A DNA stretch of 23,438 bases, from the IMG/VR virus record IMGVR_UViG_3300043427_002219, positions 1 to 23,438 of that record. One strand, written 5' to 3'. The translations under genes and the position numbers were made by a program. Shown piece by piece: positions 2,996-23,438 of this stretch. This DNA comes from a virus. Positions within the stretch are counted from its first letter, which is position 1. Every line of letters starts with the position of its first letter. The notes below the pieces were generated by a model, which had not been told where the DNA came from, did not search any database, and worked only from the letters and a program-made list of their open reading frames with translations.

Positions 2996-3376
2996 ATGGC
3001 ACGTTTAACATCTACTTTCCGCGGTTATAGTAGCGTAGGGACTAGTTTTCTTAGTCCTGTTCGCTATGACTTAGATCTTGCTAGACAAGACTTACTAAAC
3101 CATTTCAATACTCGCAAAGGCGAGCGCATTATGTTACCTGAATTTGGTAGCATAGTATGGGACATGCTATTTGAGCCCCTAGATGAAAAAAATAAAAATC
3201 TAATTGATGAAGATGTTAGAACTATTATTGGTAATGATCCGCGTTGGACATTACAAAGTGTAACGATTACTGAAGCACCAAACTCGCTAAACATTGAAGC
3301 GGTATTAACGTACAATCCATCTTCAGAAACTGTAACATTGCCGTTGACATACGATAAAGGAACAACTACAACATGA
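2996..3376 (+). CDS. 25: gp25-like baseplate wedge protein
   Basis: 126 residues, close to the usual length of the gp25/GpW-like wedge family (T4 gp25 is 132). Members join the wedge to the central hub and help start sheath assembly in contractile tails and type VI secretion. Hallmarks are RYDLDLARQDLLNHF (23-37) followed by KGERIMLPEFGS (41-52), the family's 'T-x-x-GER-x-M-x-P-x-x-G' signature, then LFEPLD and a C-terminal beta segment. The order gp5-gp25-gp6 is that of other T4-like phages. The ATG lies 5 bases after a late-promoter-like TAAATA; only a weak AGGTG lies ahead of it, so it may be translated from a very short leader. The end overlaps the gp6-like gene by ATGA. Confidence 0.92.
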   Translation: MARLTSTFRGYSSVGTSFLSPVRYDLDLARQDLLNHFNTRKGERIMLPEFGSIVWDMLFEPLDEKNKNLIDEDVRTIIGNDPRWTLQSVTITEAPNSLNIEAVLTYNPSSETVTLPLTYDKGTTTT

Positions 3377-6537: not shown

Positions 6538-9500
6538 ATGGCAAAGAATCCAAAAAAATTAAACCCAGTAACTACTGAGGTTAAAAACTATCCTGAACAA
6601 CGCGATGGAAGCTTTCTCGAACCGCATGTAACGGGACTGCTTCCTAACATCTTTAGAACAGACACAAACAAAAAAGTTTTAAGTGCTGTATTAGAAGATT
6701 TAATGCAACCAAGTTCAATGGAGGATTTAAACTATTCTGTTGGGCGTAAAACTACAAAAGCTCTGGTCACTGATTATCTTCCACACGCAACAGCAAAGCG
6801 TCAGCTTGAAGCCGGCGTAGTAGTGTTTACAGAAGACGGTCCTGAAACTATAAGTGCAGATGAAGTTGCTACTGCTTGGGGTTTTAATGACAGAACCACT
6901 GAACCTAAGGTTCCAGTTAGTATATTAGATTTACCAATTGATCCAGATAAGTTTATCAACTGGTCTGATTACTACTGGATCGAAGAAGGCATGCCGGTTG
7001 TGTATATCAACGGCAGTACCACAGAAACATTTAGTGTACAACGTGATATATTAGGAAAGCCTTTCTTTGAAACAGCACAGCAAGCACAACAAGACAATCG
7101 TCGTTTAAATTTGAAGAACGGCATGCGAGTTGTTTTTAGACAATTCCCTAATACTCTTCCAATTGATGGTGATTTGAATATTGAAATGTTATCAAATGGT
7201 CTTGCTACTCAAGCAATTCCATATGAACTTACAGCATATGATAAGAGCAATGTTGGATTAAGTGTTGATGGTGTTTTTCAAACACTTGGTGCAGACTATT
7301 CATTGTTAGGCAGTGAAATACAATGGAAGGATACTCCACCAATTGCAGGCCTAAACATCTACATTCATTTGCCAAATTATTTTATTACAACTGATGCTGA
7401 TACAGTAATTCGTCGCTGGCAAGTTGAAGGTGTAGGTACAGCTGGTGGTATTCGATTACTAGGTAGAACACATCAATATACAAATACATCTTATAGTAAA
7501 GCTACTCAGACACTATGGGATAAAACAGCGGTGCCTTGGGATAGTGTTGAATGGGACGGTATCTTACGAGGTATTAATGCCAAGCATTATATTACACAAG
7601 CACCAGGTGCTGAAAACAGAAACGCAAACAGTAGAACAAACGTATGGTATCATAAAGACACAATTAGTACTTTATCTGAATTCCTTGGCATTGACTTTAG
7701 TGACATTTCACTTTTGTCAAATCAAGCCATCAGACCAATTGTTGAGTTTGATAGCAGATTGGAAATGTTTAATCATGGAACCAAGTTTCGTGCTTGGCCA
7801 AACTTACTAATCAAAGATGGTGTAACACAAAGCGACTTTATTAACTTGTTATTATCGTCTGAGTATACAATCAGTGATTCACTAAAGACACCAGTGCTAG
7901 ACATTGCGTACACATCATTGCTTGATAAGCTACGTTTTGAGCCAAGTGTTCGTGTCAGAGTCAAATCAGGTTTCAATACACAAACGGCAATTAATAGAGC
8001 AGACTTTACTGACAGTGAAATTTCTAAATTGTATGAAGAACAAGCGGCAGCCACTGCGGCAAACCGCCCATTCAAGAAAATTTTATACTCAGTTGGTAAT
8101 AACAAAATTAACTGGTTAATCAACCCGCCGGCAAATGATGACAAAGTAACAATAACATATTTTGTCAACCAGGTACCGCTGTCAAGATTGCGTATTCTTT
8201 GGTTGGTCAACGATTCAAACGTTAACAAGATTTTAACATTATTAAACAACGGTGTACGTACAACAGCGGCAGTTTTTGAAACAGCAAATGACGGCGATGC
8301 AGTTGTTATTGACACTCCTATTGCGTCGGATGCAAATTATCTACAAGAGTACTACTGGAAAAATGGCGAAGCAGTTAAAGCTCAAACTCGCAAGAGTAGA
8401 ACACAATTGCCTAGGTTTGAACTATATGATGCTAACTTAGAGCGTCTAAGCAATAACCCAAAGAAGCCATTGATTATTAGTTCAACTATTATTGAACCAG
8501 TTGAAGGCACAGTAATGGATCCGGAGTCTGGATATAAACTAACATTCTTACCTAGCCAGTTTGATAATTTAACAGCTGACAATCCGATTAGAAATGCCAT
8601 GTTTGACATTGTGTTTAAGCACACGCTTCACGATTATTCATATTATACAGATGGCGATGCAACAAAGACTATTCAAGGTCCTTACAGCTTCCGTCGTATT
8701 TCTACATTCCCTGACGCACTTCATAATGAAGTAAGCACAGGTTATCAACGTGCATGGTTCCAACTAAAAAGTTGGGTAGTTAAAACTTTAAACAATGTTA
8801 CAAATCCAACAGTCGATCTGGATGCATCTGTTTGGCCAACTTACCATTGGTCATTGGAAGTAGACAAGGGCAAACTTAATGCTCTAGCTGTTGATTCATA
8901 TAGAACATCCCTGGCATTTGGCAGAATGGTTGGTGCTCGCGGAGAACCACTGAAGATAAATGTTCATGTTCCAGATGCACCTGGGTCGGCTAAGGTGTCG
9001 GGATATGGTATAGATGATATTGATTTAATATTCAGTGGTGATAGCATTTCCTTTGTAGTACCATCAAATGCCCCATCGCACCTAGTATTAACTTTAGGCC
9101 AGCGTTCGATTGGCATTGACGTCATTAACGTTAAGAGTGATCCGCGAAATGTAAAAGTTAAATTAAACGGTATTCCAGCAACTTATGAATATAACATTAC
9201 TCGTGATGGTTATACAACAACAGCAGTTTCATTAGAAGTAGTTGGCGCAGGTAACTTAGAAATTAGTCACCAAGGTGATGTACATGATGTCGAAGATCAT
9301 ATCACTGCATTACCAGGTTTAGAATTGAATCCCTTCCAGACACTAAGTCTTGGCGAGTTTAGTCCTAGTCGTTTGGTAACTGCGTTAACATCAGCAATTG
9401 AAACAACTAAGATTTCTGACAACCAAAGTTGGATTGACAGCTCAAAGGCCCCTGCGTTAAATGGAGCACTTATGGCTGATCACAGCTCGTTAAGAAGTGC

Positions 9501-12500
9501 TTGGGCCAGTTTGAAGCTTACACCAACAATTAACGATGTGATGATTGCACGTTCGTTGTCTGCTTGGAGATGGTACAGAAAGTTTATTGACAAGCTTGAA
9601 TCTAACTTTAACTTTTTAGATTATACTGCAAATACACCTAGAGCAAATCTAGATAGATTATTAAACGAAACACTAGTTGGTGTTACATATAGTTCAGCTG
9701 ATGCTTTAACAGGCATGGCAGTTCCAACAGATGCAATGAATCACGCTGAGTATCTTGCTGATGGTATAAAAAAACGTTTTGCTATCAACACTGGCGGCAA
9801 TGATTTATACTTAGGCTTTTATGGACCTGACATTGTTTATGTTTACATTAATCACGAATTGGTATCTAGAGATGATTATACATTTGATTTAGCTACTAAG
9901 TCTATTAATTTTAGTACTGCACCAGAAGCAGATGTTGTAGTTGAAATTTTTCATTGCAGTGAAGTAGAAGTATTTTCTAACATTCCTGCAAGTGTTGTAA
10001 GATTGGGCTTCAAAGGTGCAATTCGTCCAGGTATCCAAACTGAATCGTGGGGCGACTATTCTAAGAAAGTTATTGTTAGGCACGATGGTTCTCGCATTGC
10101 TATGTTTGGCGTTGACGAAGAAGACCCTCGTAATCAAATTATACTAGAATTAGAAAACAGAATTTACAATGGTTGCATAACCAAGTACCCATTATCAAAC
10201 GACTGGTATCCAGTCGAAAACAGAGCATGGAACGTTAACATGGTTCCAGCAACTGAGTCAGTTGTTCGCGCTCAGTTAGAATGGTTTGCTCTTAATAATA
10301 TTAATTATAGAGAACGCAACGACTACGTTAATACCAATCCATGGACATGGAACTACAATGGTAAGAGTTGGAAAAAGTTGTATGTTGATATGTTCAACAC
10401 ATATGAACTTGACAAAGCGCCATGGGTTGCACTTGGTTACATGTACGCCAAGCCCGCTTGGTGGGACACACACTATTCATGGACAAATGTAACTAAACGA
10501 GCCGCACTTGAATATGCCTTATACCACGGTATCATCAGCGAACCAGGAACACCGTTAACAGTTGATTCAACGGTGGCAAGAAAACGTTCAACTGACTCAA
10601 TCGTTAGCAGAATTAGTACTTTCCCAGTTGACGAAAACGGCAAACTAATGGATCCAATGGCATGGGGTTACCCACAGCCATCTGCTGATGTTGCAAGCTT
10701 ACCTTGGGAAATCGGTGCATGGGGTCCTGCTGAAATGGTTTGGAGAAACAGTATTGCAGGACAGTGGAACAATGCACTATTTGCAGTTGACAACAAAAAG
10801 TATTTTAACGAGTTCTTTGATGTTTCAGTGAATCCATATATTCAACCAAAGATTACAAACTCACCTAAGGCAAAAGGATACAATTCTATTGCGCCTAGCC
10901 AGTTTACACAAACACGACCAAGTATTGGTATCGGTGCATTACTATTTGAAGCATATCGAGAATTTAACCTAGACGGAGAAAAACCATTAGAGCAGTTACT
11001 ATCTGTTGATAGTAGATTACAATTTGGTCTCGGTGGCTTTAGCGATGGCATTAGCTTATTAAAAATGTACCATACAAAGTATCAATCTGGAAGCTATGTT
11101 CCAGAAGAAGACTTTATCATGACATTGAGCTCTGGTGTTCCGGTTAGCCAATTGCGCTATAGTGCTGTACGAATTGAAAGAGATGACGTAGGATTTAGAG
11201 TCTATGGTTTTGATCCTGGACAACGTTATTTTGAAGTGTTTACCCCAACTGCAAAAAGCATTACTTCTAGTTTCCCAAGCAGTCGTAGACAATTAGTTAC
11301 GCCATATGGTGAGTTTACGGAATACTTAGATTGGAACACTATTCCAGTTAAAGTGATGTACGGTGACTATATCGAAAACAGTCAAGCACTGATCACATTC
11401 CTATTAGGACTTGGAGAATTCCAAAAATCTAAAGGCATTGTATTAGACACAATCAATTCTCGCGGCACAATTACAGATTGGAAGCAAGCGGCACTTGACG
11501 CACTACAATGGATTAACGAATTCTGGGGCGACGATCATAACTGTGTCGTTGGCGTTGCTACACAAGACGGATTAAAATTCTCACATGAACGTGGTATCCT
11601 GGAACGACTAGATGCTGATCTGGGTCGAAGTGGTAAGGTTATCTTTGGCAATGGCAAGAGTGCGTTAGCTTCCGAGCTACTAATTACACGTGATTATGAA
11701 CCAAACATTGACAAGGTTGTTAGCTTAAACAACGAACAGCTTGTTTACGTTGACTTTAAACTAAGAGAGTATGAACACGTTATATTTGTTCGTAGAGAAA
11801 CCAAGTTCAAAGATTTAATCATCGATTTACAAACAGGGCACAGACTTGACGTTTTATCTTTATCAGCTAGACGCACCATGGATTGGACAGGTCGTCCACA
11901 CGCTCGTGGTGTTACATTAACTGAAACAGGATTGTTGCCAGGCTTTGATACATTAACGTCAGACATCATTGATGTACACAAACCTGAGCAAAATGCATTT
12001 GATGTTATAAAGTCTAGAATTGCAAAAAGTAATGTTGTACCTTCTAAGGCAACGGTCATCAACGAACTAATTCAAAACAGAACAATGTCTCATTTGTACC
12101 AACAAGGTTTACAAAGTTCGTCTGGCACTACACTTGCGATTGATGCGTTACTACGCAACGATAACATTGATATTCCAGGCCGTAAGCAAGACATTGAAGT
12201 CAACGAGCAATGGTTATTCACAACAGGAAACTTTGGTAACCTATTTGGTAGCCAAGTTTGGGAAGTTGAGTTAAGAAAACAAGATTTTAATACAAACAAG
12301 AAAATTATTAGATTCAGTGAAAACAATGTTGAAAACTTAAACGACAACATCATTGAATACAATAAGAAAGACAAGCGTTGGATTACTCGTCCATCGCTAA
12401 CATACGGCTTTGGCAAAATTAACAGAGAGAAACTAGGACTAAGCAACACTACTAATTGGTTGCCAAACGCTGGCGTTGCTAATTTAATTGATACAGATGT

Positions 12501-15500
12501 CCAGGTAGTTACAATTGATGAAGTGAACATTGATTCTTTCAAGAACATTGATCCTTTAAACAAGCCTATTAGCCTGAGTACAAGTGGTACACTCTCAACA
12601 TCGGATATCTTTAGTACAAACTCGTTTAGTCGTTATATTGATTATGACCCAGATGACCTAGCATGGAACGAAGGCAAGTTATACCGAGCAAAGGTAAAAA
12701 TTTCCGGATCGTCAACAAGTGCGTTTAGTGCAGACCAGTGGAATCTAGTTGAAGTTGATTCACGACTATTGCCAGCAATATGGATAAGCGACTTTGGTTA
12801 CATTGCTAATTCAAAATACAGAGGAACATGGATTCCAAATGGTACATTATATCGAGTTGGCGATTTAATTGAATATCAGTTGCAAAATTATGTGTGCTCG
12901 GTTGAACATACATCAACAAGCTCTTTTGTTAACAATCGTTTAACATCAGTTGCAGTCACACACGGTGGTAGCGGATACACAGACAATGAGACAATAAGAA
13001 TTACAGGCGAAGATGGACAGTTCTCAACTGGTAAGGTTAGAACTAAAGGCGGAAAAATCTCGTCAATTGTTAATGTTGTTGATAACGTCGGTGGCTTTGG
13101 TGCCAACACAATTGTAAAAGTATTGGATAGCAACGGACAAGAACATCCGTTGTCTTCGAGAGCAGTACTGCTGCCAATTATTTCTCCGATTGAAACAAAA
13201 GAAACCATTGGAGCAATTTTATCAGTAAGTGTTCCTTCAACATTTAACGGCGGCAACAATTATTTTGCTGATAACATTACTGTAACTATAAATGGTACAG
13301 GTACAGGTGCAGTTATTACTCCTGTAATTTCTGCACAGAAAGCAACAACACGCATTATTCGTGGAATTTATAAAGCCAAAGCAAGAGACATAACTGCATC
13401 GGGTACTGGTTATAAAGTTGGCGACAAAATGTTACTTTCAAATCTTGGCAATGAATCTGATGATGCCATCATCGAAGTAACAGCAATTGATCCAGCAGTT
13501 GCACCTGCTCAACCATTGGGTAGAATTATTAGTTTTACTGTAGCGGCAAACAGCCTTGGTAACAAGGGTGGTCATAGTTACAAAGTGGGAAAAGAATACT
13601 CTCTTACAAACATCAATGGAACTGGTTCTGGTGCTAAAATAACAGTACAGGAAACCATCAACTTTGATACAGGCGTTGTTATATACGACACAGGGGTAAT
13701 AACTGGATTTACAATTGCTTCTCCTGGTAAAGGATATGGAAATAACACAACCTTAACTGTTACTAGATCTAAACCACGTGCCACTGCAACAGTAGTCAAT
13801 GGTGTTGTTACTGCTATCACAGTTGACAACCAAGGTCGCGGCAAGAACATGGTATTTGGTAGTGTAGAAATAAACATTTTACCAAATGGTGGCGGCAGTG
13901 GAGCAGTGGCAAAAGCTAACATTATCAATGGACAGTTAAGCACAATTGATGTACTAAGTGGTGGCGGCGGATATAACAACGGAGCCAGAATTACAATTAC
14001 AGATCCTGAATGGAAAGAAGCAGTTACAACAACTCTGACATTATCTGCTGGTACTGGTAATGAAACTTTAACAAATGTTGTAACTGGTGTGACTATCATT
14101 GATGGTGGATATGATTACAATAAAGACACTGATACAATTGTAATCAGTGATACCAACAGAGACAGCTTATTGCCTAATGCAACCGCATCAATTGGTTCGG
14201 TGGTAGATGGTACCATCTATCAAGTTGATGTTGACCAACCCAATACTGCTAATTTCTACGGTACCCCGGAAATAACGTTTAATAGTGGAAACAATACAGC
14301 TACACTAACCCCAATAATTCAATCATACTGGAATCTAAGAGCAACAGGTTATGGCTGGAACGTATTGCAAACGTTTAATCCAATGTATGTTGAAGAAGCA
14401 TGTCCAAATGCATTGGACACCGGATTAAATGAAAGTAAAATTACTTTTTCTAATCCACATGGACTAACAACAGGTGACTATTTTGTATTGTCAGGCGCCA
14501 ATGACGGAAACTATGATAAAGTACACAAAGTAAAAACCAAAGTTGATGACTACAATGTGCTAATTGAAGCACGTAGTACCAGCGACCAGATTGTTTATAA
14601 TCTAGTTGCATTCAAGATGCAGTCAGTTAGATTTAGTTCTAAAGCAGACTATGAAAAGAGTAAGCTAACATATAACTGGCAACGTGGTATGAAAGCATAC
14701 ATTGACCAGGATCCTACAAATACCGACTTACCTCAAGGCAATAACTTTAACTATGAATTTACTGAGATTGAATTTGGGACAAATGTTGGCAGTACTGACA
14801 AGGTTATCAATCATTCAAGTTACTTGATCAATACACCAGCAATTTACAAAGCTTGGTTAATGGATATTACTAACCAAGAAATTTTAGCTACAGTTGAAAC
14901 ATACGATCCGTTCAAAGGCGTAGTAATTGATGACGTTGCTCAATATGTTGAGTACAAAACTTCCGTGGACCCATCAATTTATAACGTTGATGAAATAGGT
15001 ATTAAAGATCCTTTAATTGCCGAAGCATGGGGCGGTGTGCGCCTTGGAACATTGTGGTGGGACACTAGCAAGATACGTTACATTGAATACGAGCTAGGAG
15101 AACTAGAAGCACGAGCAAACAACTGGGGTAAGAAATTTGCTGATACTGAAGTTGTAATTTACGAATGGGTATCTAGCAAGGAAATGCCAACAGCTGAAAC
15201 TCCAGGTATTAGACTTGATACAAGTAGCGGCATTGGACAGATTCGTTTTGCTGAAATTGAAGAATTAAACGAATACAAAGTTCCAGAAACAGTTTACTAT
15301 TACTGGAAGCGTGGAGTTAACACACTTCCAGCGGCATCTACACGACCATATACGGCTTCAACAATTGAACAAGTACTTGACAATCCAGATGCTAATGCAG
15401 TAAGCTGGTTATCACCAATTGAAGTAACAAGCGATTCTGCTTCAATATTGATTTCAAACATTAATGATTATTTTACAACTAGAGATAGTGTAATCTTAAG

Positions 15501-17046
15501 AATTGAACAGAACTTCCGCCCTGAACAAAAACATACAACAGGTGTGTTAGTCACAGAAGGATTCAACGGCGGAACAATTCCCGAGTACCTGTATGGTCGC
15601 TTGCGTGATAGTTTAGTTGGCGAAGACAAGTACAGAACAATTGAACCTATTAGGTATATTGCACCCGGTACATCAACTACTGGCTTGAAGATTGGCGAGT
15701 TGGTTACATTTGTAAACTTGGATACAATTGAATTTAGTTTTGTAAACTCATATGGCGAAGATGATGTTCCTGTGTTAATTGATATTACAGAAGAACGTCC
15801 TGACGTTAAATTTGTTTGGGAAAGTACAGATGAGCCTACGTTTGGTGTTTATTGTGTTAAGAAAGATATTCCAAGTGGCACAGTTTTAAATCCATCGTTA
15901 TACTCATTGAAGCGTGTTCAGACAGCCATTAGTAAAAATGTCTTAAAAGACAATAAGTTTTATGCTGTAACTGAGCGCCCGCGCCAAGTACCTGATCCGT
16001 TGTTACATCCGCTTCGTCGATATGGTAACAATCATGTACCACGTGCTCAATCATGGTTCAAGAATGCAACAAATGCTCGTCGAACATTCATTGATTGTGT
16101 AAACGACTTCTTGTTGAAGATTGACATAGTAAGCAAAACAAATTGGGATGCGAATTTAAGAACATGGCAACCATTGTTAGGTGATAAGACACTTCACTTA
16201 GATCCAGATTGGCCAGGTCCAGTTGACGACTTAAATGGATATTACCAGTTATGGGATTATGCTGACTATAGTTTAAATGGTTATGTTCCTGGCAACGAAG
16301 ATATTAAACTTAGTTCACTAAGTGACTTGCCAGCGGCACTTGTTGAAACACCAGACTTGACCAGATTTGCGGTTGTTGATGTAGTTGGCGTAACAACAGA
16401 AGTTTACGATTACAATAACAAAAACCTAACAGTTGTTTATCGTAAAAACGGAACTATACAGATTAGAGATTTGTCTGATCCTGCAGGTTGGGACACTACT
16501 CGTTGGGACGCAAAGCTTTGGGATCCAAGCCGTTGGGATCTGGGACAAGTATTAAAAGCATTGCGTGAAAACATCTTTGTTGGAACTGATGCTGGCTACT
16601 TTAACTTGATGTTCTTTGCCATGGTTAAGGAAAGTTTATCACAAATATCAATGGCAGATTGGGTTTTCAAAACAGGTTACTTGAGTGTTGACCAAACGTC
16701 TGATAACGATTTACAACAAGTTGCTCTTTACTATGATAAGAAAGACGGCTTAATCAAAAATTACATCAATGAAGTTAAACCATATCACAGTAAACAGATT
16801 GACAAAGGCACGTACTCTAAGTCTACTCAAATTATTCCAGTAGGCATTGATGAAAGCGTAGTAATAACTTTCACTGAGCCTGAGTTTTTAACAACCGAAG
16901 TCACTGCAGATAGGCTAATTGACCGCCGACGTAACGGTACACCAGAAGTAGTTCAAATTCCTCAGCGAATTTTAACTCAAGCCGGTGAAAGATTAATGGT
17001 TCGAGACCATGTGCTTACACAAGTAATTGTTACTGAGGAAGGTTAA
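6538..17046 (+). CDS. Giant virion structural protein (3502 aa), in the gene 7 position
   Basis: A single uninterrupted frame with AAGG at 6527-6530, seven bases before the ATG. It follows gp6 directly, where T4 carries wedge gene 7 (1032 residues), so a baseplate-periphery role is inferred from position rather than clear homology. Visible landmarks: NWSDYYWIEEG near residue 141; a long Trp/Tyr/Asn-rich middle; two W-G-Y-type motifs at about 2042-2072 and 2094-2130 that resemble chitin-binding type 3 modules; a Gly-Tyr repeat region at about 2135-2580; NPHGLTTGDY at 2639; a cluster of four WD pairs at about 3318-3336; and INEVKPYHSKQ at 3410-3420, a motif I associate with very large structural proteins of marine T4-like phages. 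No signal peptide, transmembrane segment or catalytic motif was seen. It could combine wedge and tail-fibre roles. A structural protein is near certain; the exact role is unknown. Confidence 0.8.
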   Translation: MAKNPKKLNPVTTEVKNYPEQRDGSFLEPHVTGLLPNIFRTDTNKKVLSAVLEDLMQPSSMEDLNYSVGRKTTKALVTDYLPHATAKRQLEAGVVVFTEDGPETISADEVATAWGFNDRTTEPKVPVSILDLPIDPDKFINWSDYYWIEEGMPVVYINGSTTETFSVQRDILGKPFFETAQQAQQDNRRLNLKNGMRVVFRQFPNTLPIDGDLNIEMLSNGLATQAIPYELTAYDKSNVGLSVDGVFQTLGADYSLLGSEIQWKDTPPIAGLNIYIHLPNYFITTDADTVIRRWQVEGVGTAGGIRLLGRTHQYTNTSYSKATQTLWDKTAVPWDSVEWDGILRGINAKHYITQAPGAENRNANSRTNVWYHKDTISTLSEFLGIDFSDISLLSNQAIRPIVEFDSRLEMFNHGTKFRAWPNLLIKDGVTQSDFINLLLSSEYTISDSLKTPVLDIAYTSLLDKLRFEPSVRVRVKSGFNTQTAINRADFTDSEISKLYEEQAAATAANRPFKKILYSVGNNKINWLINPPANDDKVTITYFVNQVPLSRLRILWLVNDSNVNKILTLLNNGVRTTAAVFETANDGDAVVIDTPIASDANYLQEYYWKNGEAVKAQTRKSRTQLPRFELYDANLERLSNNPKKPLIISSTIIEPVEGTVMDPESGYKLTFLPSQFDNLTADNPIRNAMFDIVFKHTLHDYSYYTDGDATKTIQGPYSFRRISTFPDALHNEVSTGYQRAWFQLKSWVVKTLNNVTNPTVDLDASVWPTYHWSLEVDKGKLNALAVDSYRTSLAFGRMVGARGEPLKINVHVPDAPGSAKVSGYGIDDIDLIFSGDSISFVVPSNAPSHLVLTLGQRSIGIDVINVKSDPRNVKVKLNGIPATYEYNITRDGYTTTAVSLEVVGAGNLEISHQGDVHDVEDHITALPGLELNPFQTLSLGEFSPSRLVTALTSAIETTKISDNQSWIDSSKAPALNGALMADHSSLRSAWASLKLTPTINDVMIARSLSAWRWYRKFIDKLESNFNFLDYTANTPRANLDRLLNETLVGVTYSSADALTGMAVPTDAMNHAEYLADGIKKRFAINTGGNDLYLGFYGPDIVYVYINHELVSRDDYTFDLATKSINFSTAPEADVVVEIFHCSEVEVFSNIPASVVRLGFKGAIRPGIQTESWGDYSKKVIVRHDGSRIAMFGVDEEDPRNQIILELENRIYNGCITKYPLSNDWYPVENRAWNVNMVPATESVVRAQLEWFALNNINYRERNDYVNTNPWTWNYNGKSWKKLYVDMFNTYELDKAPWVALGYMYAKPAWWDTHYSWTNVTKRAALEYALYHGIISEPGTPLTVDSTVARKRSTDSIVSRISTFPVDENGKLMDPMAWGYPQPSADVASLPWEIGAWGPAEMVWRNSIAGQWNNALFAVDNKKYFNEFFDVSVNPYIQPKITNSPKAKGYNSIAPSQFTQTRPSIGIGALLFEAYREFNLDGEKPLEQLLSVDSRLQFGLGGFSDGISLLKMYHTKYQSGSYVPEEDFIMTLSSGVPVSQLRYSAVRIERDDVGFRVYGFDPGQRYFEVFTPTAKSITSSFPSSRRQLVTPYGEFTEYLDWNTIPVKVMYGDYIENSQALITFLLGLGEFQKSKGIVLDTINSRGTITDWKQAALDALQWINEFWGDDHNCVVGVATQDGLKFSHERGILERLDADLGRSGKVIFGNGKSALASELLITRDYEPNIDKVVSLNNEQLVYVDFKLREYEHVIFVRRETKFKDLIIDLQTGHRLDVLSLSARRTMDWTGRPHARGVTLTETGLLPGFDTLTSDIIDVHKPEQNAFDVIKSRIAKSNVVPSKATVINELIQNRTMSHLYQQGLQSSSGTTLAIDALLRNDNIDIPGRKQDIEVNEQWLFTTGNFGNLFGSQVWEVELRKQDFNTNKKIIRFSENNVENLNDNIIEYNKKDKRWITRPSLTYGFGKINREKLGLSNTTNWLPNAGVANLIDTDVQVVTIDEVNIDSFKNIDPLNKPISLSTSGTLSTSDIFSTNSFSRYIDYDPDDLAWNEGKLYRAKVKISGSSTSAFSADQWNLVEVDSRLLPAIWISDFGYIANSKYRGTWIPNGTLYRVGDLIEYQLQNYVCSVEHTSTSSFVNNRLTSVAVTHGGSGYTDNETIRITGEDGQFSTGKVRTKGGKISSIVNVVDNVGGFGANTIVKVLDSNGQEHPLSSRAVLLPIISPIETKETIGAILSVSVPSTFNGGNNYFADNITVTINGTGTGAVITPVISAQKATTRIIRGIYKAKARDITASGTGYKVGDKMLLSNLGNESDDAIIEVTAIDPAVAPAQPLGRIISFTVAANSLGNKGGHSYKVGKEYSLTNINGTGSGAKITVQETINFDTGVVIYDTGVITGFTIASPGKGYGNNTTLTVTRSKPRATATVVNGVVTAITVDNQGRGKNMVFGSVEINILPNGGGSGAVAKANIINGQLSTIDVLSGGGGYNNGARITITDPEWKEAVTTTLTLSAGTGNETLTNVVTGVTIIDGGYDYNKDTDTIVISDTNRDSLLPNATASIGSVVDGTIYQVDVDQPNTANFYGTPEITFNSGNNTATLTPIIQSYWNLRATGYGWNVLQTFNPMYVEEACPNALDTGLNESKITFSNPHGLTTGDYFVLSGANDGNYDKVHKVKTKVDDYNVLIEARSTSDQIVYNLVAFKMQSVRFSSKADYEKSKLTYNWQRGMKAYIDQDPTNTDLPQGNNFNYEFTEIEFGTNVGSTDKVINHSSYLINTPAIYKAWLMDITNQEILATVETYDPFKGVVIDDVAQYVEYKTSVDPSIYNVDEIGIKDPLIAEAWGGVRLGTLWWDTSKIRYIEYELGELEARANNWGKKFADTEVVIYEWVSSKEMPTAETPGIRLDTSSGIGQIRFAEIEELNEYKVPETVYYYWKRGVNTLPAASTRPYTASTIEQVLDNPDANAVSWLSPIEVTSDSASILISNINDYFTTRDSVILRIEQNFRPEQKHTTGVLVTEGFNGGTIPEYLYGRLRDSLVGEDKYRTIEPIRYIAPGTSTTGLKIGELVTFVNLDTIEFSFVNSYGEDDVPVLIDITEERPDVKFVWESTDEPTFGVYCVKKDIPSGTVLNPSLYSLKRVQTAISKNVLKDNKFYAVTERPRQVPDPLLHPLRRYGNNHVPRAQSWFKNATNARRTFIDCVNDFLLKIDIVSKTNWDANLRTWQPLLGDKTLHLDPDWPGPVDDLNGYYQLWDYADYSLNGYVPGNEDIKLSSLSDLPAALVETPDLTRFAVVDVVGVTTEVYDYNNKNLTVVYRKNGTIQIRDLSDPAGWDTTRWDAKLWDPSRWDLGQVLKALRENIFVGTDAGYFNLMFFAMVKESLSQISMADWVFKTGYLSVDQTSDNDLQQVALYYDKKDGLIKNYINEVKPYHSKQIDKGTYSKSTQIIPVGIDESVVITFTEPEFLTTEVTADRLIDRRRNGTPEVVQIPQRILTQAGERLMVRDHVLTQVIVTEEG
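12937..14280 (+). repeat. Degenerate Gly-Tyr beta repeat region within the giant protein
   Basis: Protein-level repeat covering about residues 2135-2580 of the giant protein. Units carry a G-x-G-Y or G-G-Y turn followed by N/D and an alternating I/T/V strand: HGGSGYTDNETIRITG (2142), ASGTGYKVGDKMLL (2287), SPGKGYGNNTTLTV (2394), GGGGYNNGARITIT (2475) and DGGYDYNKDTDTIVIS (2522), separated by segments such as GTGSGAKITV and VVNGVVTAITVDNQG. The DNA copies have diverged, so this is an old expansion. Such repeats are common in phage tail proteins and probably form a beta-solenoid or a string of small beta domains. Confidence 0.7.
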
Positions 17047-17079: not shown

Positions 17080-17703
17080 ATGAACATCCAAGAAATTCCA
17101 GTCAGCGTTGAAGGTTTTGTTGTTATCAAAGACTTAACCAACGACAAAATATTGTACGAAGGCCGCAATGCTGTACATCAAGAAAATATGAGTGTAGCAT
17201 TGGCACAAGCCCTGTGCCATGGTGATGGTTCTTTTATCAGTGAAATGTGGTTTGGCTGTGGCGCCGCTATTATTTCTACTGACGGGACTATAACTTATAG
17301 AAAACCTAACGTTACTGGTGTTAATGCTGACCTATATCAGCCAACATACTTTAGAGTAGTCGACGAAACTGATTATAACAGAGCGCCGGAATCTGCTGAC
17401 AACATTACAATCAGCCATGTTTCTGGTACAAACTACGCAGATACAATTGTAACAGCTACACTAAGCAACACTGATCCTCTAAAAGGTGACAACGAATTTA
17501 ATCTATATGATTACACAAATGGTAGCTTAGAAGCTACCATTTACGATGGTGAGTTTGAGTTTAATGAAATCGGATTAAAAACCAAAGGAAGCAATGGTTT
17601 GAAATCTGGTAAGTTGCTAACACACTTTATCTTCCATCCAGTACAAAAGAACGCAGAGCAGACTATACAAATTGTGTATACACTCAGAGTACGTGCTGGA
17701 TAA
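17080..17703 (+). CDS. Conserved virion structural protein
   Basis: 207 residues with no signal peptide or membrane segment. The N-terminus carries VIKDLTNDKILYEGRNAVH and ENMSVALAQAL (35-45), followed by MWFGCGAA (56-63). The C-terminus carries FEFNEIGLKTKG (159-170) and LLTHFIFHPVQK (179-190), ending in a beta strand TLRV. This N-A-V-H...A-x-A-L...F-G-x-G...F-N-E-I-G-L...F-H-P pattern is one I associate with virion proteins of T4-like phages, located beside fibre genes. Its exact place in the particle is unknown; baseplate or fibre attachment is plausible from its position between the giant protein and the fibre genes. The ATG has no Shine-Dalgarno sequence and follows CTAAATA closely. A perfect 12-bp inverted repeat lies in the codons for residues 146-154. 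Confidence 0.75.
   Translation: MNIQEIPVSVEGFVVIKDLTNDKILYEGRNAVHQENMSVALAQALCHGDGSFISEMWFGCGAAIISTDGTITYRKPNVTGVNADLYQPTYFRVVDETDYNRAPESADNITISHVSGTNYADTIVTATLSNTDPLKGDNEFNLYDYTNGSLEATIYDGEFEFNEIGLKTKGSNGLKSGKLLTHFIFHPVQKNAEQTIQIVYTLRVRAG
17517..17542. repeat. Perfect 12-bp inverted repeat with 2-base centre
   Basis: AAATGGTAGCTT, then AG, then AAGCTACCATTT: the arms are exactly complementary. As RNA it would give a strong hairpin of 9-10 bp with a small loop. No T-run follows the right arm, so it is not a standard intrinsic terminator. It lies inside the coding sequence of the 17080-17703 gene. Confidence 0.85.
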
Positions 17704-17756: not shown

Positions 17757-18728
17757 ATGGCATATAATGTAAACAAAAGTGATGGTTACTCATTACTAAC
17801 TCTATTAGACGGTGAAGTTGACACTTCATATTCTAGTCTAGTACTGTTAGGGAAAAACTATCTAGGCTACGGCGAAATTATCGCTGAGAACTTTATCCAT
17901 CTAGTTGAAAATTTTGCAGGTAAAGACCGCGCAGAGTTAAACGCCCTTAACGGACAGTTATATTTTAATAGAACCAAAGGTGTTTTACAGATTAACACAG
18001 GCGACGATTACACTACCAACGCTAACGATTGGAGAAACATTGTTGCTTTCAACGACGGCACAGGCTTTGAGCAAGCAGACATTAAAGAAAAAGATACAGG
18101 TATCTATCACCGTTGTATCAAAATGTTTGTTAAGAATGTATTAGTTGGTATTATTAGCAGTGACGGCGAATTTGTTCCTGATGCAAGCGAAGGTTTACAA
18201 TCTTTCTGCGGTGGAAACCTCGATGGAACTGATGCTGATCTTGGTTCAGGCGACTACAATCAAACAGGCACAATTGGTAAAGGCTTAAACTTGAACTCAA
18301 GTAGCGACTTCAAGATCCGTGGTGTTGCAGTTGAAGCTGAGTTTGCTGACGTTGCTGAGATTTATGTAGGTGATGCCAGCTATGAGCCAGGCACATTAGT
18401 ATCACTTGGTGGTGATGAAGAAGTAACACAAACAACATTAACAGCAGATACAAACGTTTTTGGTATTGTATCTACTAGACCTGCGTACTTAATGAACGCA
18501 AAACGTAAAAAAGATAAGAACGCACTTCCAATTGCTGTGGCAGGTCGTATTCCTGTTAAAGTAGTTGGTGCAGTTAAGCGTGGCGATCGCTTGGTATCAA
18601 GCGATATTCCAGGGGTTGCTAAAGCCGCAACTGGAGACGAACCAGCATGGAGCATTGTTGGTCGTAGCTTAGGAAACTTTACAGGTAGTGGGGTTGGCAA
18701 GGTAGAAGCCACAGTCGGAGCTCGTTAA
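17757..18728 (+). CDS. Short tail fibre-like structural protein
   Basis: 323 residues. The N-terminal part (9-68) has the pattern DGYSLLTLLDGEVDTSYSSL, LLGKNYLGYGEIIAENFIHL, ENFAG and NGQLYFN, a recurrent attachment head in fibre proteins of marine T4-like phages. The middle (100-190) is Gly/Asp/Asn-rich. The C-terminus (195-323) holds ADVAEIYVGDASYEPGTLVS, VFGIVSTRPAYLMN and LPIAVAGRIPVKVVG, a beta-rich ending shared by many phage fibre proteins. It probably forms a trimeric fibre or a piece of one; it is short for a full long-tail fibre. AAAGGA lies 10 bases before the ATG and CTAAATA further upstream, so it can be made from its own late message. The next gene starts 4 bases after its stop. 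Fibre role is inferred from these patterns. Confidence 0.75.
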   Translation: MAYNVNKSDGYSLLTLLDGEVDTSYSSLVLLGKNYLGYGEIIAENFIHLVENFAGKDRAELNALNGQLYFNRTKGVLQINTGDDYTTNANDWRNIVAFNDGTGFEQADIKEKDTGIYHRCIKMFVKNVLVGIISSDGEFVPDASEGLQSFCGGNLDGTDADLGSGDYNQTGTIGKGLNLNSSSDFKIRGVAVEAEFADVAEIYVGDASYEPGTLVSLGGDEEVTQTTLTADTNVFGIVSTRPAYLMNAKRKKDKNALPIAVAGRIPVKVVGAVKRGDRLVSSDIPGVAKAATGDEPAWSIVGRSLGNFTGSGVGKVEATVGAR

Positions 18729-18732
18729 TCCA

Positions 18733-20118
18733 ATGGCAACTCCACGCGGTACAATTATCAGCGAAGGCTGTGTCCCAAATACATATACCTACCGTATTGT
18801 CAAGGCTGACGGTAATGGCGGCACCTATTACGTAGATACACACAAAAGAACAGAATGTGGATATGTACCACCTGAGCCTGCTGGCACACTATTAAGAACA
18901 GCTTGTGTTGGCTTTGACAAAATAGCTTATTATTCTGGCGGCACCGAAGGTCCAGAGTACACAGCAGTACTTGAAAGAAATAGCACAGACTGTGGATATG
19001 TCGCACCTGAACCTTTAGAGAGAACTCGTCGTTCAGATCTAATTACTGCTAGATACTTTAACACTTTAAAAGACAACGTGAATGAGCTATTTGGCGACAC
19101 TCACGCAGGCGAAGGCCCAAGTGATGACTCACAAATCCAAGATGACATTCGTTGGGGTTGGGGCGGCGAACACGTACAAACTGTAGAACGCGGCGAAATT
19201 GTTACTTCAGCATATACAAACGAACTTGTTAATCGCATCAACATTAGTACTTTAAGAACAAATAGCTCAGATCAGGAATTAGTTATTGTTTCTCAAGGAG
19301 ATAAGATTACAGCTGAATTTTTTAATACAGCAACAGGTTTGCTTGAAGGCGCAAGAAATGATCGCAACAAAGTTGATCCTGCATTAACAACAATTTCAAC
19401 ATTGGCCAGTAGCTATAACAGCGAAGATATTGAGTCATGGTATACTGTACTAAGCAATTCTATTGAATTAGATTTTGGCGGTTATGAAAGTGCTAGACAC
19501 TTCTTTAATGCTGGCGGAGACATTCGCTTATCTTTTAGCACAAGTGGTGGCTCGGGTGCTGGCTATAACATCTGGCGCAATATCTTTATTGATATGGGTA
19601 CACTAAAACTAAATGTAGCAGATACTGTGAGCTTGAACAATCGTGGTATTACCCAAGGCCGCGGCTTTGCTGAACTAACAGCAGTTGACGAGTTGCTATA
19701 CACTAGCCCAGCAGGCGGTGGCGGCGGTTATGGTGGCTATGGTGGCTATGGTGGCTACGGAGGTTATGGCGGCTACGGTGGCTATGGTGGTTATAACTGT
19801 AGCCCAGGAGGCTATGGAGGCTATGGAGGATATGGTGGCTATGGAGGATATGGTGGCTACGGAGGATATGGCGGTGGTGGCTACGGAGGTTATGGTGGCT
19901 ACGCATCTAGCCGTTTAAAACTATATGGCTATATTGATGGTAACAAATTGGTCCTACGTACTTTGTTAGACCATTTAGGACTTGGCTGTGTAGTTAATGG
20001 CGTTGTGAATATGACTGTTACAATGAGCCATCCAAATACAGTTACGGAAAACGGTGTAACACTTGCACTTCCAACTCCAACTGTAGCCCAAATTGTTCCC
20101 TGGTACATTGTTATCTAA
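18733..20118 (+). CDS. Adhesin-like structural protein with CGY repeats and a GGY tract
   Basis: 461 residues. Residues 10-95 contain two tandem units ending in CGYVPPEP and CGYVAPEP, each with an upstream Cys (C13, C58). Residues 100-200 are helical (LITARYFNTLKDNVNELF, ITAEFFNTATGLLEGA). Residues 250-285 carry YESARHFFNAGGDIRLSF, a motif seen in structural proteins of several phages. Residues 328-390 are almost only Gly and Tyr: 18 GGY triplets in blocks of 8, 7 and 3, broken by NCSP (355-358) and a GGGG run. A hydrophobic beta-rich ending follows. Gly-rich motifs of this type occur in tip adhesins of T4-like phages (gp38 type), where they pack as polyglycine helices and present host-binding loops; that role here is inferred. 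GGAG at 18717-18720 lies 12 bases before the ATG. Confidence 0.75.
   Translation: MATPRGTIISEGCVPNTYTYRIVKADGNGGTYYVDTHKRTECGYVPPEPAGTLLRTACVGFDKIAYYSGGTEGPEYTAVLERNSTDCGYVAPEPLERTRRSDLITARYFNTLKDNVNELFGDTHAGEGPSDDSQIQDDIRWGWGGEHVQTVERGEIVTSAYTNELVNRINISTLRTNSSDQELVIVSQGDKITAEFFNTATGLLEGARNDRNKVDPALTTISTLASSYNSEDIESWYTVLSNSIELDFGGYESARHFFNAGGDIRLSFSTSGGSGAGYNIWRNIFIDMGTLKLNVADTVSLNNRGITQGRGFAELTAVDELLYTSPAGGGGGYGGYGGYGGYGGYGGYGGYGGYNCSPGGYGGYGGYGGYGGYGGYGGYGGGGYGGYGGYASSRLKLYGYIDGNKLVLRTLLDHLGLGCVVNGVVNMTVTMSHPNTVTENGVTLALPTPTVAQIVPWYIVI
19714..19902 (+). repeat. 9-bp-period tandem repeat encoding GGY triplets
   Basis: Tandem GG(N)GG(N)TA(T/C) units coding residues 328-390 of the adhesin-like protein. 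Third positions vary, but an 18-base higher unit (GGAGGATATGGTGGCTAT) recurs with near-identity in the second block, so slippage remains possible. Confidence 0.9.
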
Positions 20119-20531: not shown

Positions 20532-21410
20532 ATGAGTACCCGAGGCTTTATGATGTTCGCTTACAACAACGAACAATTAGATTATACTCAGCTAGCATTG
20601 GTAGCGGCATACGCTGTAAAAAAACACATGCCAGACTACCCAGTTGTTTTGGTAACAAATCAACAAAGTTTAGAGCATTGTAAAAATACACACGGCTCAC
20701 TAATGATGGCCGCGGCATTTGATGATATTGTTTTAACAAATCCAGAATACGAACGTAATATGCGTTTACATCACGATGGCGCATATCACAGCTTCAACGC
20801 ACAATTTACAAATACAAACAAACACGACATTTACAATCTAAGCCCGTTTGATGAAACTATTCTAATTGACACAGATTACTTGTGCGGCAACGACAACCTA
20901 TCAAAGCTGTTTGGTGGCCAACACGATGTTGCTATGTTTAGGGATGCTCGCAACCTAAGATGCGAAGAACCATTCACAACAGAACGTTGGCTACACTATG
21001 CTGGCATTCGCATGTGGTGGTCAACTGTGGTATACTGGCGCAAGAGCGAAGAAGCTGAACACTTCTTTAATGTTTGGTCAGCAGTTAAAAAGAACTGGGA
21101 GTATTATCGCTTCCTATATAAATTTCCTGGTACATTGTATCGCACAGACTACTCGGCTAGTATTGCCGCTCACATGTGCGATGGCTGGCATGATGGTGGC
21201 TTTATTGGCCAGATTCCTAACTTTATGCGCTACCAAGATCAGCGCGACGATATAGTAGACGTACTTGGACCAAACCACTGGGTAATGATGAGCAATCTAC
21301 CAGAAGAGTGGAAGAACATGGTTGTTGAAATCAAAGGCGAAGATGTTCACTTGATGAACAAGAAAAGTATACTTCGCAACTATGATAAGATCATGGAGAA
21401 TTTGGCATGA
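20532..21410 (+). CDS. Glycosyltransferase-like protein (GT-A fold, DTD motif)
   Basis: 292 residues, cytoplasmic by appearance. The N-terminus GFMMFAYNNEQLDYTQLALV followed by PDYPVVLVTNQ is a Rossmann-like nucleotide-sugar start. ETILIDTDYLCGND (108-121) gives D113-T114-D115, the DxD metal/nucleotide-sugar motif of GT-A enzymes. VAMFRDAR and the later GTLYRTDYSASIAAHM and GPNHWVM segments fit the acceptor half of GT8-like enzymes. The donor and acceptor cannot be read from the sequence. Its place after the fibre/adhesin genes makes glycan decoration of a virion protein or a host surface glycan the main options. AGGA (20521-20524) lies seven bases before the ATG, and the end overlaps the next gene by ATGA. 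Fold assignment is fairly sure; activity is inferred. Confidence 0.7.
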   Translation: MSTRGFMMFAYNNEQLDYTQLALVAAYAVKKHMPDYPVVLVTNQQSLEHCKNTHGSLMMAAAFDDIVLTNPEYERNMRLHHDGAYHSFNAQFTNTNKHDIYNLSPFDETILIDTDYLCGNDNLSKLFGGQHDVAMFRDARNLRCEEPFTTERWLHYAGIRMWWSTVVYWRKSEEAEHFFNVWSAVKKNWEYYRFLYKFPGTLYRTDYSASIAAHMCDGWHDGGFIGQIPNFMRYQDQRDDIVDVLGPNHWVMMSNLPEEWKNMVVEIKGEDVHLMNKKSILRNYDKIMENLA

Positions 21411-22108
21411 CATTCTTTGTAATTGTACCGCCGGGTAAAGATAACTTAGCTGAAGTTTCTAAAATTGATATTGGATTTGCGTTACCGGGTTCTCGAGTTG
21501 AATTTGTCAAAGTTGATGCGGTGCCATCATCACAACTTAAAATACTTGCATCTTTAAACTTAGAAGCAGGTGATGTTATTTGTTTTGCTGGACTATGTGT
21601 TAGACGTACCACTATTGATGCAATAGAGTTGTCTAAATCTACTAAGTTGAATTATATGCCCGGCGCTGGAGTTGATCATAGAGGTGTACATATTCCTGCT
21701 GGTAAAATTAGTCGTAGACAATCAATTGAAAAAAACTATCAAACAGCTTGGCCGTACTTGATGGTTATTGGCGACCCTGAAACTGCTAAAATTAGTTTTG
21801 AACTATTTGAACATCTAAGTCCTACGGATTATTGGCCTAACTATGTTCCAGACGTGCCAGAACTTATACACCTATTGGGTGTAATATCAATGACAGGATA
21901 TTGGCAGGTTCCAGAATGGTTCAAGTTAGTTGACCTTAGCATCAGAGACTTAGAAATTGCCCCAGTGATGTATGCTAGCCATACATGGCATGATTGGATT
22001 GCTTTCTATCCAGCTAACGGCAATTTTAAATTAGAAAATCACGCACAGCTATTTCCTGTATGGCTCGATGGAAGTGAAAAACCATTGGAGCATTGGAAAC
22101 GTGGCTGA
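21407..22108 (+). CDS. Unrecognised protein, possibly in a glycan-modification group
   Basis: 233 residues, not recognised. It starts with a hydrophobic strand (MTFFVIVPPGKD) and a second one, GDVICFAGLCVRR (55-67), a Rossmann-like beginning without a clear DxD. Later segments are aromatic-rich (YLMVIGDPETAKISFELFEHL, DYWPNYVPDVPELIHLL, SHTWHDWIAFYP). No signal peptide or membrane helix. GGAG (21395-21398) lies eight bases before the ATG, which overlaps the glycosyltransferase-like stop as ATGA, so the two are probably translated together. It could be a degenerate glycosyltransferase or a partner of the neighbouring enzymes; neither is shown. Confidence 0.7.
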   Translation: MTFFVIVPPGKDNLAEVSKIDIGFALPGSRVEFVKVDAVPSSQLKILASLNLEAGDVICFAGLCVRRTTIDAIELSKSTKLNYMPGAGVDHRGVHIPAGKISRRQSIEKNYQTAWPYLMVIGDPETAKISFELFEHLSPTDYWPNYVPDVPELIHLLGVISMTGYWQVPEWFKLVDLSIRDLEIAPVMYASHTWHDWIAFYPANGNFKLENHAQLFPVWLDGSEKPLEHWKRG

Positions 22109-23075
22109 CATTGAGTTCGAATTACGTAAGCGTAAAAAGGTACGCCAAGACTTTTGGTCCATAAAGTACAATGTACACAATGGTTACATTGAATCTATAG
22201 AAGCTGGCAACAAACTTTTACCAGATCATTTAATTGTATCATATGCCAAAGTAAAAGATATACTGGCTGGTAAACTAAACCAAAACGATTATCGTGTTGC
22301 GTTCAATGAAAAGCTAGGCGCCCTTGACTTGGTTGACATTAAGCGACCTAGAGAATTTAAAAAGAAACAAGTATGGGTTGGATGGTTAAGCGCAGGCGAA
22401 GCAGGCCTTAACATCTTTAGCCCATTGAGAATTATACTATTTGGCGACACTGGCATTATGCGTGTAGAAGCCAGTAGAGAATGGTCTACTAGTTTGCGCG
22501 AAACAATGGATAGACGCACAGACCTAGAAGATGTTCCATTCTTTATAAGTGATGTCGAAGACCCGCATCAACTGCTGGGCCATGATAAAATTAGACTAGT
22601 TGACATTGTAGAACGTGGATACTGGGAAAAACGCTTATGGGGATTCATGGATCATGATAATGTACAGCGAATACTTTACCAAGGGTTGCAAATACGCATA
22701 AACATGCCACCAGTGGCAAGCGAACTTTCATTGACACGTATGGCTCAGTATAGTCCGTTTACTGGTATCATCGATGAGTCATCTGTTATCAGTCATCGCG
22801 GCCGTGGCAAGCACATTTCTATTTTTACCAAAGACGGTGGCATTTGGGCACAAAGTCATTATGAAAAGGGTAATGCAATTGATCATTTAATTGGCAACTT
22901 ACGTGTAGCAGTTGTAAAAGGAGATGATCCAGAAGATTTTGTTGCCTGGGCAGAAATGCCAGCCTTAATGCTTAGGCAACCACAACCATTTGAAATTTTA
23001 CCAGATTGGCAGTACCAGAGCACTCCAAGTCTGTTATATAAAGCTAACAACATTGATATAGGAGTACTATCTTGA
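22101..23075 (+). CDS. Unrecognised protein in the glycosyltransferase-like group
   Basis: 324 residues from the GTG at 22101. This start gives an 8-base overlap with the upstream gene and has GGAG at 22087-22090. An ATG at 22068 would add 11 residues and a 41-base overlap without a ribosome site, so it is less likely. The N-terminus is basic (ADIEFELRKRKKVRQDFWSI) followed by KYNVHNGYIESIEAGN. The middle has KKQVWVGWLSAGEAGLNIF and FGDTGIMRVEASREWSTSL, the rest is mixed alpha/beta with GRGKHISIFTKDGG. No catalytic motif, signal peptide or membrane segment stands out. It ends with the TTGA overlap onto the next gene. Function unknown; context suggests a role linked to its neighbours. Confidence 0.75.
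   Translation: MADIEFELRKRKKVRQDFWSIKYNVHNGYIESIEAGNKLLPDHLIVSYAKVKDILAGKLNQNDYRVAFNEKLGALDLVDIKRPREFKKKQVWVGWLSAGEAGLNIFSPLRIILFGDTGIMRVEASREWSTSLRETMDRRTDLEDVPFFISDVEDPHQLLGHDKIRLVDIVERGYWEKRLWGFMDHDNVQRILYQGLQIRINMPPVASELSLTRMAQYSPFTGIIDESSVISHRGRGKHISIFTKDGGIWAQSHYEKGNAIDHLIGNLRVAVVKGDDPEDFVAWAEMPALMLRQPQPFEILPDWQYQSTPSLLYKANNIDIGVLS
23060..23064 (+). promoter_or_regulatory. Shine-Dalgarno AGGAG for a TTG start
   Basis: Strong ribosome-binding sequence seven bases before the TTG at 23072. It decides the start of the last gene, which has no usable ATG. Confidence 0.8.
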
Positions 23076-23438
23076 AAACCCCAATTACAGAATTTGACGT
23101 AGTGTTTATCAGCTACGATGAACCAAACGCAGACGAAAATTACGCTGACTTATTAGAGAAATGTCCATGGGCCAAACGTAGCCATGGTGTATATGGCAGT
23201 GATGCTTGCCATAAAGCGGCAGCAAAGTTAGCTGACACAGAACGTTTCATTACAATTGATGCTGACAACAAAGTGCGCCCAGACTTCTTTGAACTTGAGT
23301 TGGATTTACATAAGTTTGATCGCAGTGACGTATTAAGCTGGAGCGGCAAAAACGTCATCAATGGTTTAGTGTATGGTAATGGTGGTGTTAAATTATGGCC
23401 CAAAAAAGTTGTTGAACAAATGCGTACACACGAAGCAG
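23072..23438 (+). CDS. Glycosyltransferase-like protein, 5' part
   Basis: The gene runs off the right edge; 122 residues are visible. The start is the TTG at 23072: AGGAG at 23060-23064 lies seven bases before it and it overlaps the previous stop as TTGA, while no in-frame ATG exists nearby. The visible part has FDVVFISYDEPNADENYADL (8-27), KRSHGVYGSDACHKAAAKLA (35-54), FITIDADNKVRPDFF (59-73) with D63-A64-D65, and INGLVYGNGGVKLWPKK. This 'FISYDEP...HGV...AHK-like...IDAD...YGxGGVKL' order is that of a glycosyltransferase-like family I associate with marine T4-like phages; the DAD is the expected DxD metal site. Substrate unknown. Confidence 0.75.
   Translation, partial: MKTPITEFDVVFISYDEPNADENYADLLEKCPWAKRSHGVYGSDACHKAAAKLADTERFITIDADNKVRPDFFELELDLHKFDRSDVLSWSGKNVINGLVYGNGGVKLWPKKVVEQMRTHEA

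Follow-up and report, generated by a model that had tools for sequence, protein, structure and literature searches.

Glycine-Rich and Length-Variable Tail Proteins of Known Phages

Host-binding domains built as glycine-rich stems with variable tips have been described for the Pam3 tail fibre gp24 (PMC9608196) and the PP01 adhesin gp38 (PMC12892980). Pam3 gp24 consists of a helical N-domain and a TNF-like β domain, and each subunit bears six glycine-rich loops whose GGGGxGG motifs are stacked into a lattice; every loop emerges from the β domain along one glycine-rich motif, carries a variable tip, and returns along a second such motif (PMC9608196). The gp38 adhesin of S16 and PP01 has polyglycine-II stems with tip loops; its many short motifs are packed as a sandwich and separated by hypervariable loops (PMC12892980).

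Copy-number change in a tail gene has been described for EfV12-phi1, where 1.8-kb in-frame tandem duplications in the tail-fibre gene accompany changed infectivity (PMC6365445); duplications in a T4 adhesin are attributed to Tetart et al. 1996, as cited in the same paper (PMC6365445). Since the EfV12-phi1 duplications go along with altered infectivity, a change in tail-fibre length can be of consequence, which for the protein considered here serves as an analogy. Searching the literature for phage GGY repeats and for tail fibres with glycine-rich parts of varying length returned nothing relevant.

The Tail/Baseplate Gene Module

The DNA analysed (hereafter, the window) is a virus record of 23,438 bp that carries a tail/baseplate module of the jumbo myovirus type. 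Upstream of the gene under study are located genes for a gp5-like hub/lysozyme (770–2956) and a gp25-like wedge protein (2996–3376), followed on the plus strand by a gp6-like baseplate wedge protein (3373–6528; phrog_10646, E 2.9e-253). The nearest relatives of the latter by tblastn, at 33–35% identity, belong to jumbo phages of the RaK2/GAP32/Atu_ph07 type, including Serratia BF and Erwinia phages. An open reading frame for a giant protein of 3502 aa (6538–17046, plus strand) is the positional counterpart of gp355, a giant structural protein of the PA5oct virion, the two having been compared by position and size alone. Further along the same strand lie the genes for a 207-aa protein (17080–17703) homologous to gp357 of phage PA5oct (BLASTP 8e-25; phrog_11259) and for a 323-aa protein (17757–18728) homologous to gp359 (BLASTP 4e-33), with which it shares the N-terminus and a C-terminal cement-like domain; a PF22758 match of this protein (E 7.7e-4) falls below the cut-off. 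The gene under study (18733–20118, plus strand) comes next and encodes a tail-module protein of 461 aa with a long GGY tract, delineated by its open reading frame, its IMG/VR relatives, and a distant homologue, PA5oct gp360. The same gene order (giant structural protein, protein of about 205 aa, cement-like fibre protein, GGY-type protein) is found in the family of PA5oct gp360.

Four genes follow downstream (20532–21410, 21407–22108, 22068–23075, and 23072–23437), and their order is kept in two related loci, L015 and L021; the first three are without a Pfam match. A promoter/terminator scan gave a signal no higher than that of shuffled sequences.

The 461-Residue Protein and Its Family

Searches of Pfam, PHROG, PDB sequences, and cultured phages (tblastn) gave no match to the protein, and none of them links it by sequence to a known receptor-binding family. 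PDB matches at E 0.003–0.1 (e.g., DnaJ) were dismissed as due to low-complexity Gly-rich stretches. A single-sequence search of IMG/VR yielded 28 relatives, and 79 loci were kept out of the 340 found by a profile search. Distant members (L092–L108) have the helical core and an RHFFNAGG β domain in common with the GGY group, and hhalign joins the alignment of the GGY group (A1) to that of the distant group (A2) with a probability of 99.9% (E 9.5e-33). The distant group reaches cultured phages, namely PA5oct, Paride (Paride_0431), and their kin; A2 aligns with PA5oct gp360 (YP_010678854.1) at E 1.5e-27, so that two profile steps link gp360 to the GGY group. The helical core and β domain are homologous over most of their length, which places the protein in the gp360/RHFFNAGG family, and no public name for this family was found in the libraries searched. 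PA5oct gp360 and Paride_0431 resemble the GGY protein in their core fold, as judged by profile–profile comparison, in gene order, and in the position of the giant upstream gene; unlike it, these unnamed proteins lack GGY, have a short turn instead, and bear a longer C-terminal extension. In the PA5oct record, gp355, gp357, gp358, gp359, and gp360 are annotated with ESI-MS/MS virion evidence. Because of the homology to gp360, the matching neighbours gp357 and gp359, and these annotations, it is very probable that the GGY protein belongs to the virion. The cultured-phage search turned up no phage in which a protein of this type bears a GGY tract.

The N-terminal region (residues 1–97; 18733–19023) is variable, as seen from alignment A1 and the Pfam assignments of relatives: in the window, it comprises two Cys-containing repeats ending in CGYVxPEP, while in relatives it is missing or swapped, e.g., for subtilase domains. 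At least one copy of these short repeats (GTxLxxxCxGxxxxxYxxGxxGxxYxxxxExNSxxCGYxPP) precedes the core in the window (18733–19023), L002, L006, and L015, and the repeats of all four have no Pfam match. Several larger relatives (L003, L006, L014, L035, L054, L055, and L070; 820–1512 aa) have the GGY domain at the C-terminus and a subtilase (Peptidase_S8, E 4e-7 to 1e-29) at the N-terminus, often together with an InlB-type B-repeat; by domain content, such a fusion is possibly a virion-borne protease. L087 carries fibronectin/Ig-like domains N-terminal to the GGY domain. Two contigs of the Neomarinimicrobiota MAG RS350 (L106 and L107) encode an identical predicted distant-member protein, the same as L098 of IMG/VR, and are probably phage contigs binned into a bacterial MAG.

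The N-terminal region is followed by a conserved helical core (residues 103–211; 19039–19365), defined by conservation in A1 and by helices in the AlphaFold2 (AF2) models and marked by the motifs ITA..FN.L...NELFGDTHAGEGPS and NELVNRIN. The first part of the β domain (residues 219–326; 19387–19710) has a RHFFNAGGDIRL motif and ends with the strand ELLYTSP; its pLDDT is mostly 72–87, with one block at 61. The second part (residues 392–461; 19906–20115), SSRLKLYGYI...PWYIVI, is predicted mostly at pLDDT 80–90, with two blocks near 60. The GGY tract (residues 327–391; 19711–19905) lies between them.

A Loop in Place of a Hairpin Turn

Built from 21 sequences, the AF2 model of the protein in the window is poor overall (pLDDT 60), with the β domain mostly at 72–90 and the tract at about 26 between the strands 320–324 and 393–402. 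For this reason, the homologue L021, which has a short tract with 5 GGY, was modelled instead (45 sequences; pLDDT 86, pTM 0.85): here, pLDDT falls below 50 solely in the tract and the N-terminal tip, and the first part of the β domain reaches about 89–97. In both models, the predicted architecture is a helical core plus a β domain, and the tract scores 26–36. Distant relatives have a short turn where the tract sits, and the profile alignment gaps out the whole tract at the hairpin turn. Models and alignment alike show the tract as a predicted loop taking the place of a short β-hairpin turn in a conserved domain. As far as a monomer model tells, the tract leaves the hairpin as a loop and would not lie buried in a non-binding position. 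Foldseek searches with the window and L021 models gave no PDB match at E ≤ 0.001; in BFVD, the matches were A0A6J5TC84 from an uncultured phage (TM 0.90) and two proteins without a name.

The order of a helical part and then a β domain, as seen in the L021 model, and a Gly-rich loop leaving the β domain recall Pam3 gp24, which, in contrast, has six GGGGxGG loops rather than one loop of regular GGY. No match to Pam3 gp24 was seen among PDB sequences or, at E ≤ 0.001, among PDB folds; the out-and-back course with a non-glycine break at the tip, proposed below, would be a further resemblance.

The earlier note on this DNA had likened the tract to T4-like tip adhesins. Read in this way, the protein would be a polyglycine-II adhesin tip similar to gp38 of S16/PP01, binding the receptor directly, with host range tuned by slippage. 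Both are phage tail proteins with glycine-rich repeats; the tract does belong to a tail-module virion protein and changes length in 9-bp steps, glycine-rich stems do bind the host in Pam3 gp24 and PP01 gp38, and the EfV12-phi1 duplications do go with changed infectivity. However, a profile search of PDB sequences up to E 1 did not retrieve gp38 (6F45), nor did Foldseek at E ≤ 0.001, gp38 being absent among the 50 matches listed. The tract is also one internal loop, with two arms per chain and at a different position, in a domain that exists tract-free in distant relatives, and not a lattice of many motifs within a chain; outside the central break, its amino acids are conserved and not hypervariable. 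These results speak against the comparison with gp38, and the adhesin reading seems rather unlikely.

Composition and Repeat Pattern of the Tract

Of the 65 residues in the tract, 41 are Gly and 18 are Tyr, so that these two make up 59/65; it contains exactly 18 GGY, in agreement with the earlier count. The layout AGGGGGY(GGY)7-NCSP-(GGY)7-GG-(GGY)3-A includes both the NCSP break and the GGGG run (close to the end) by which the pattern had been said to be split. The first arm, AGGGGGY(GGY)7, occupies 19711–19794 and the second, (GGY)7-GG-(GGY)3-A, 19807–19905, with NCSP at 19795–19806. The periodicity of 9 and 18 bases was likewise borne out. Tandem Repeats Finder detects a single array in the whole window, with a period of 9, 19.2 copies, a 68% match, and a score of 130, and, family-wide, the wobble-base identity between 9-bp units peaks at lag 2 (18 bp), being 0.62 versus 0.50 in shuffled arrays (z = 9.2). 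At lags 1 and 3 (9 and 27 bp), it is lower than in shuffles, so that the repeat effectively comprises two GGY units whose codons alternate. A preference for even numbers of units was considered and dropped, since tracts without Cys show counts of both parities.

Among in-register triplets of the family tracts, 666/719 are GGY. Non-wobble positions of the unit are 96.5–100% conserved, while wobble positions are mixed. The register was fixed by requiring Tyr or Cys as the closing residue, and the 100% seen at the Tyr codon partly reflects this choice, unlike the values at the Gly positions. This amino acid conservation shows the pattern expected if selection maintains GGY while the DNA array changes. 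It also speaks against an explanation in which the loop is simply permissive and slippage has expanded a neutral, low-complexity stretch that serves no particular purpose. The high turnover described below, the existence of relatives with 0–5 GGY units, and the low model confidence, which fits disorder, would agree with neutral expansion. Not expected under drift, in turn, are a near-central Cys with co-varying arms (see below), though shared ancestry explains part of this, and the occurrence of GGY in the same loop of very divergent relatives. Neutral expansion appears quite unlikely.

The earlier claim that such regular GGY is unusual has to be corrected: runs of at least 5 GGY in IMG/VR fall mostly into this one protein family (54/75 newly fetched hits by the motif test), and about a dozen divergent relatives, recognized by eye, also have them at the same site. 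In L139, L145, L152, L153, L161, L166, L168, and L175, GGY tracts occupy the same loop with the same flanks, and some have GCY near the middle. Since these divergent proteins share the location, the loop type may be wider than the 54-locus family. In L094 (protein 3968–5080), a different Tyr-rich repeat, YAYAYAYVYVYG, is found about where the GGY tract sits.

Rapid In-Frame Length Change

Across 54 distinct IMG/VR loci, the tract at this site ranges from 15 to 91 residues and from 0 to 24 GGY, so that the repeat number is not invariant among relatives. In-frame change in 9-base steps, another earlier suggestion, is seen between near-identical contigs. The window and L001 differ by 4 substitutions outside the tract versus 13 substitutions and +18 bp within it; L011 and L012 differ by 1 mismatch in ~11 kb outside versus −54 bp inside; L070 and L071 differ by 1 substitution outside versus 2 substitutions and 9 bp inside. 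L021 and L022 have 5 substitutions outside and 3 in the tract with no length change, and in the L050/L051 pair, the tract is unchanged. All 13 tract substitutions between the window and L001, as well as those between L021 and L022, are synonymous. In L061/L063, 2 of 4 apparent mismatches were N bases and were taken out of the counts. Altogether, 21/995 bp of the tract versus 24/40,745 bp outside differ in seven close pairs, a ~36-fold excess (p 1.5e-22, a value that presumes independent sites), and these pairs contain 4 indel runs in the tract versus 0 in ~41 kb of flank. At a flank identity of at least 0.85, 32/36 length differences are multiples of 9 bp (3 residues).

Tract lengths derive from assemblies, in which collapse of short repeats and mixing of strains can occur, and the differences between near-identical contigs could be regarded as short-read artefacts, i.e., repeat collapse or strain chimeras. 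The L011/L012 difference does sit in a perfect 18-bp repeat, which is prone to collapse, and the L061 tract contains two N. Collapse alone, however, does not produce the 13 synonymous substitutions between the window and L001 or the L021/L022 substitutions without length change; moreover, the arrays are short (about 45–270 bp), and length varies steadily at 75–95% flank identity across different contigs. With artefact as the general cause being very unlikely, it is well supported, leaving some room for assembly error, that in nature the tract gains and loses length much faster than the surrounding DNA changes. Similarity is higher within arrays than between them (0.525 versus 0.448), so the data fit units being gained and lost locally, whether through slippage or through recombination of one copy with another, two mechanisms inseparable on these data.

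A Central Cysteine and a Proposed Out-and-Back Shape

The NCSP break holds a near-central Cys (codon 19798–19800). Among tracts of 38 residues or more, 29 have an internal Cys, whose mean position is at a tract fraction of 0.495 (sd 0.063), the more central one being taken in a locus with two candidates. It occurs in contexts including NCSP, YCGY, EDCN, GCPLPY, HCDS, and DNCHT. The lengths of the arms on either side correlate (rho 0.60, p 5e-4; 0.77 over 12 contexts). A central Cys is present in 18/18 tracts of at least 60 aa versus 6/36 shorter ones, and 16 tracts of 38–59 aa are without it. These statistics are non-independent because the loci are related: five changes on the tree suffice to explain the Cys state, and an independent-pairs test over 4 pairs gave 2 for and 0 against, which is not significant. 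Both ends of the loop are attached to strands of one domain, so the chain that goes out must return. From the Cys position and the arm-length correlation, it may be proposed with moderate confidence that the Cys break is the apex of an out-and-back loop.

Proposed Function

The reading that we favour, with a probability of roughly 0.57, is that the protein is a tail-fibre/baseplate virion protein of a jumbo myovirus in which GGY forms a permissive out-and-back loop, gaining and losing 9-bp units and acting as a projecting stem of adjustable length towards the host. The loop would take over a short β-hairpin turn and send two extended glycine-rich arms out and back, with a Cys-containing apex between them in the long versions. 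In polyglycine II, one turn takes about 3 residues, each with a rise of about 3.1 Å. Owing to the three-residue turn, a GGY chain packed in a similar way would have every Tyr on one face, and the full extension of an arm of ~29–30 residues would come to roughly 9 nm. The array would gain or lose 9-bp units, often two at a time (18 bp) and always in frame, through slippage or through recombination among the copies, while selection would preserve the GGY amino acids during this turnover. The tract is probably exposed on the virion, and its likeliest use would be that of a projecting stem setting the reach or contact surface of the tail tip towards the host. We infer the hairpin shape, polyglycine-II packing, virion exposure, and host contact from the observations above, and receptor binding and host-range tuning by the tract would follow by the same kind of reasoning.

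Another possibility is that the tract is a structural tail element (a trimer clamp, a spacer, or a folding aid packed on neighbours) whose length matters for assembly and not for host contact. The protein does belong to a conserved structural module, and the N-terminal subtilase, Ig-like, and fibronectin extensions of relatives look more host-facing than a C-terminal loop. Assembly parts, however, are not expected to vary so much in length among near-identical phages, and we regard this role as unlikely.

An extended form of the favoured projecting-stem reading would be a length-adjustable hairpin needle, in which every subunit of an oligomer (assumed to be a trimer) would supply two GGY arms to a small bundle of the polyglycine-II type, with Tyr on one face. 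In its long versions, a Cys cap, formed by a disulfide or by metal binding, would close the apex, and the 9/18-bp instability would dial its reach at the host surface. In this full form, the proposal is doubtful.

Implications for Tail Proteins of Jumbo Phages

The EfV12-phi1 duplications and the GGY array have in common an in-frame copy-number change in a tail gene, but the former have a far larger unit in an unrelated protein, while the latter is a 9/18-bp array at the codon level. Likewise, glycine-rich stems with variable tips are already known from phage host-binding proteins, whereas here a family left nameless by the libraries searched changes stem length in codon-perfect 9-bp steps between phages that are otherwise nearly identical. 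The near-central Cys offers a simple structural prediction that can be tested. If the loop is exposed, the family would exemplify variable repeat number in a virion protein and offer a natural length series (0–24 units) for relating tip reach to adsorption. The hairpin needle, if true, would represent a new kind of phage tip element together with a system that varies a virion protein in a microsatellite-like way.
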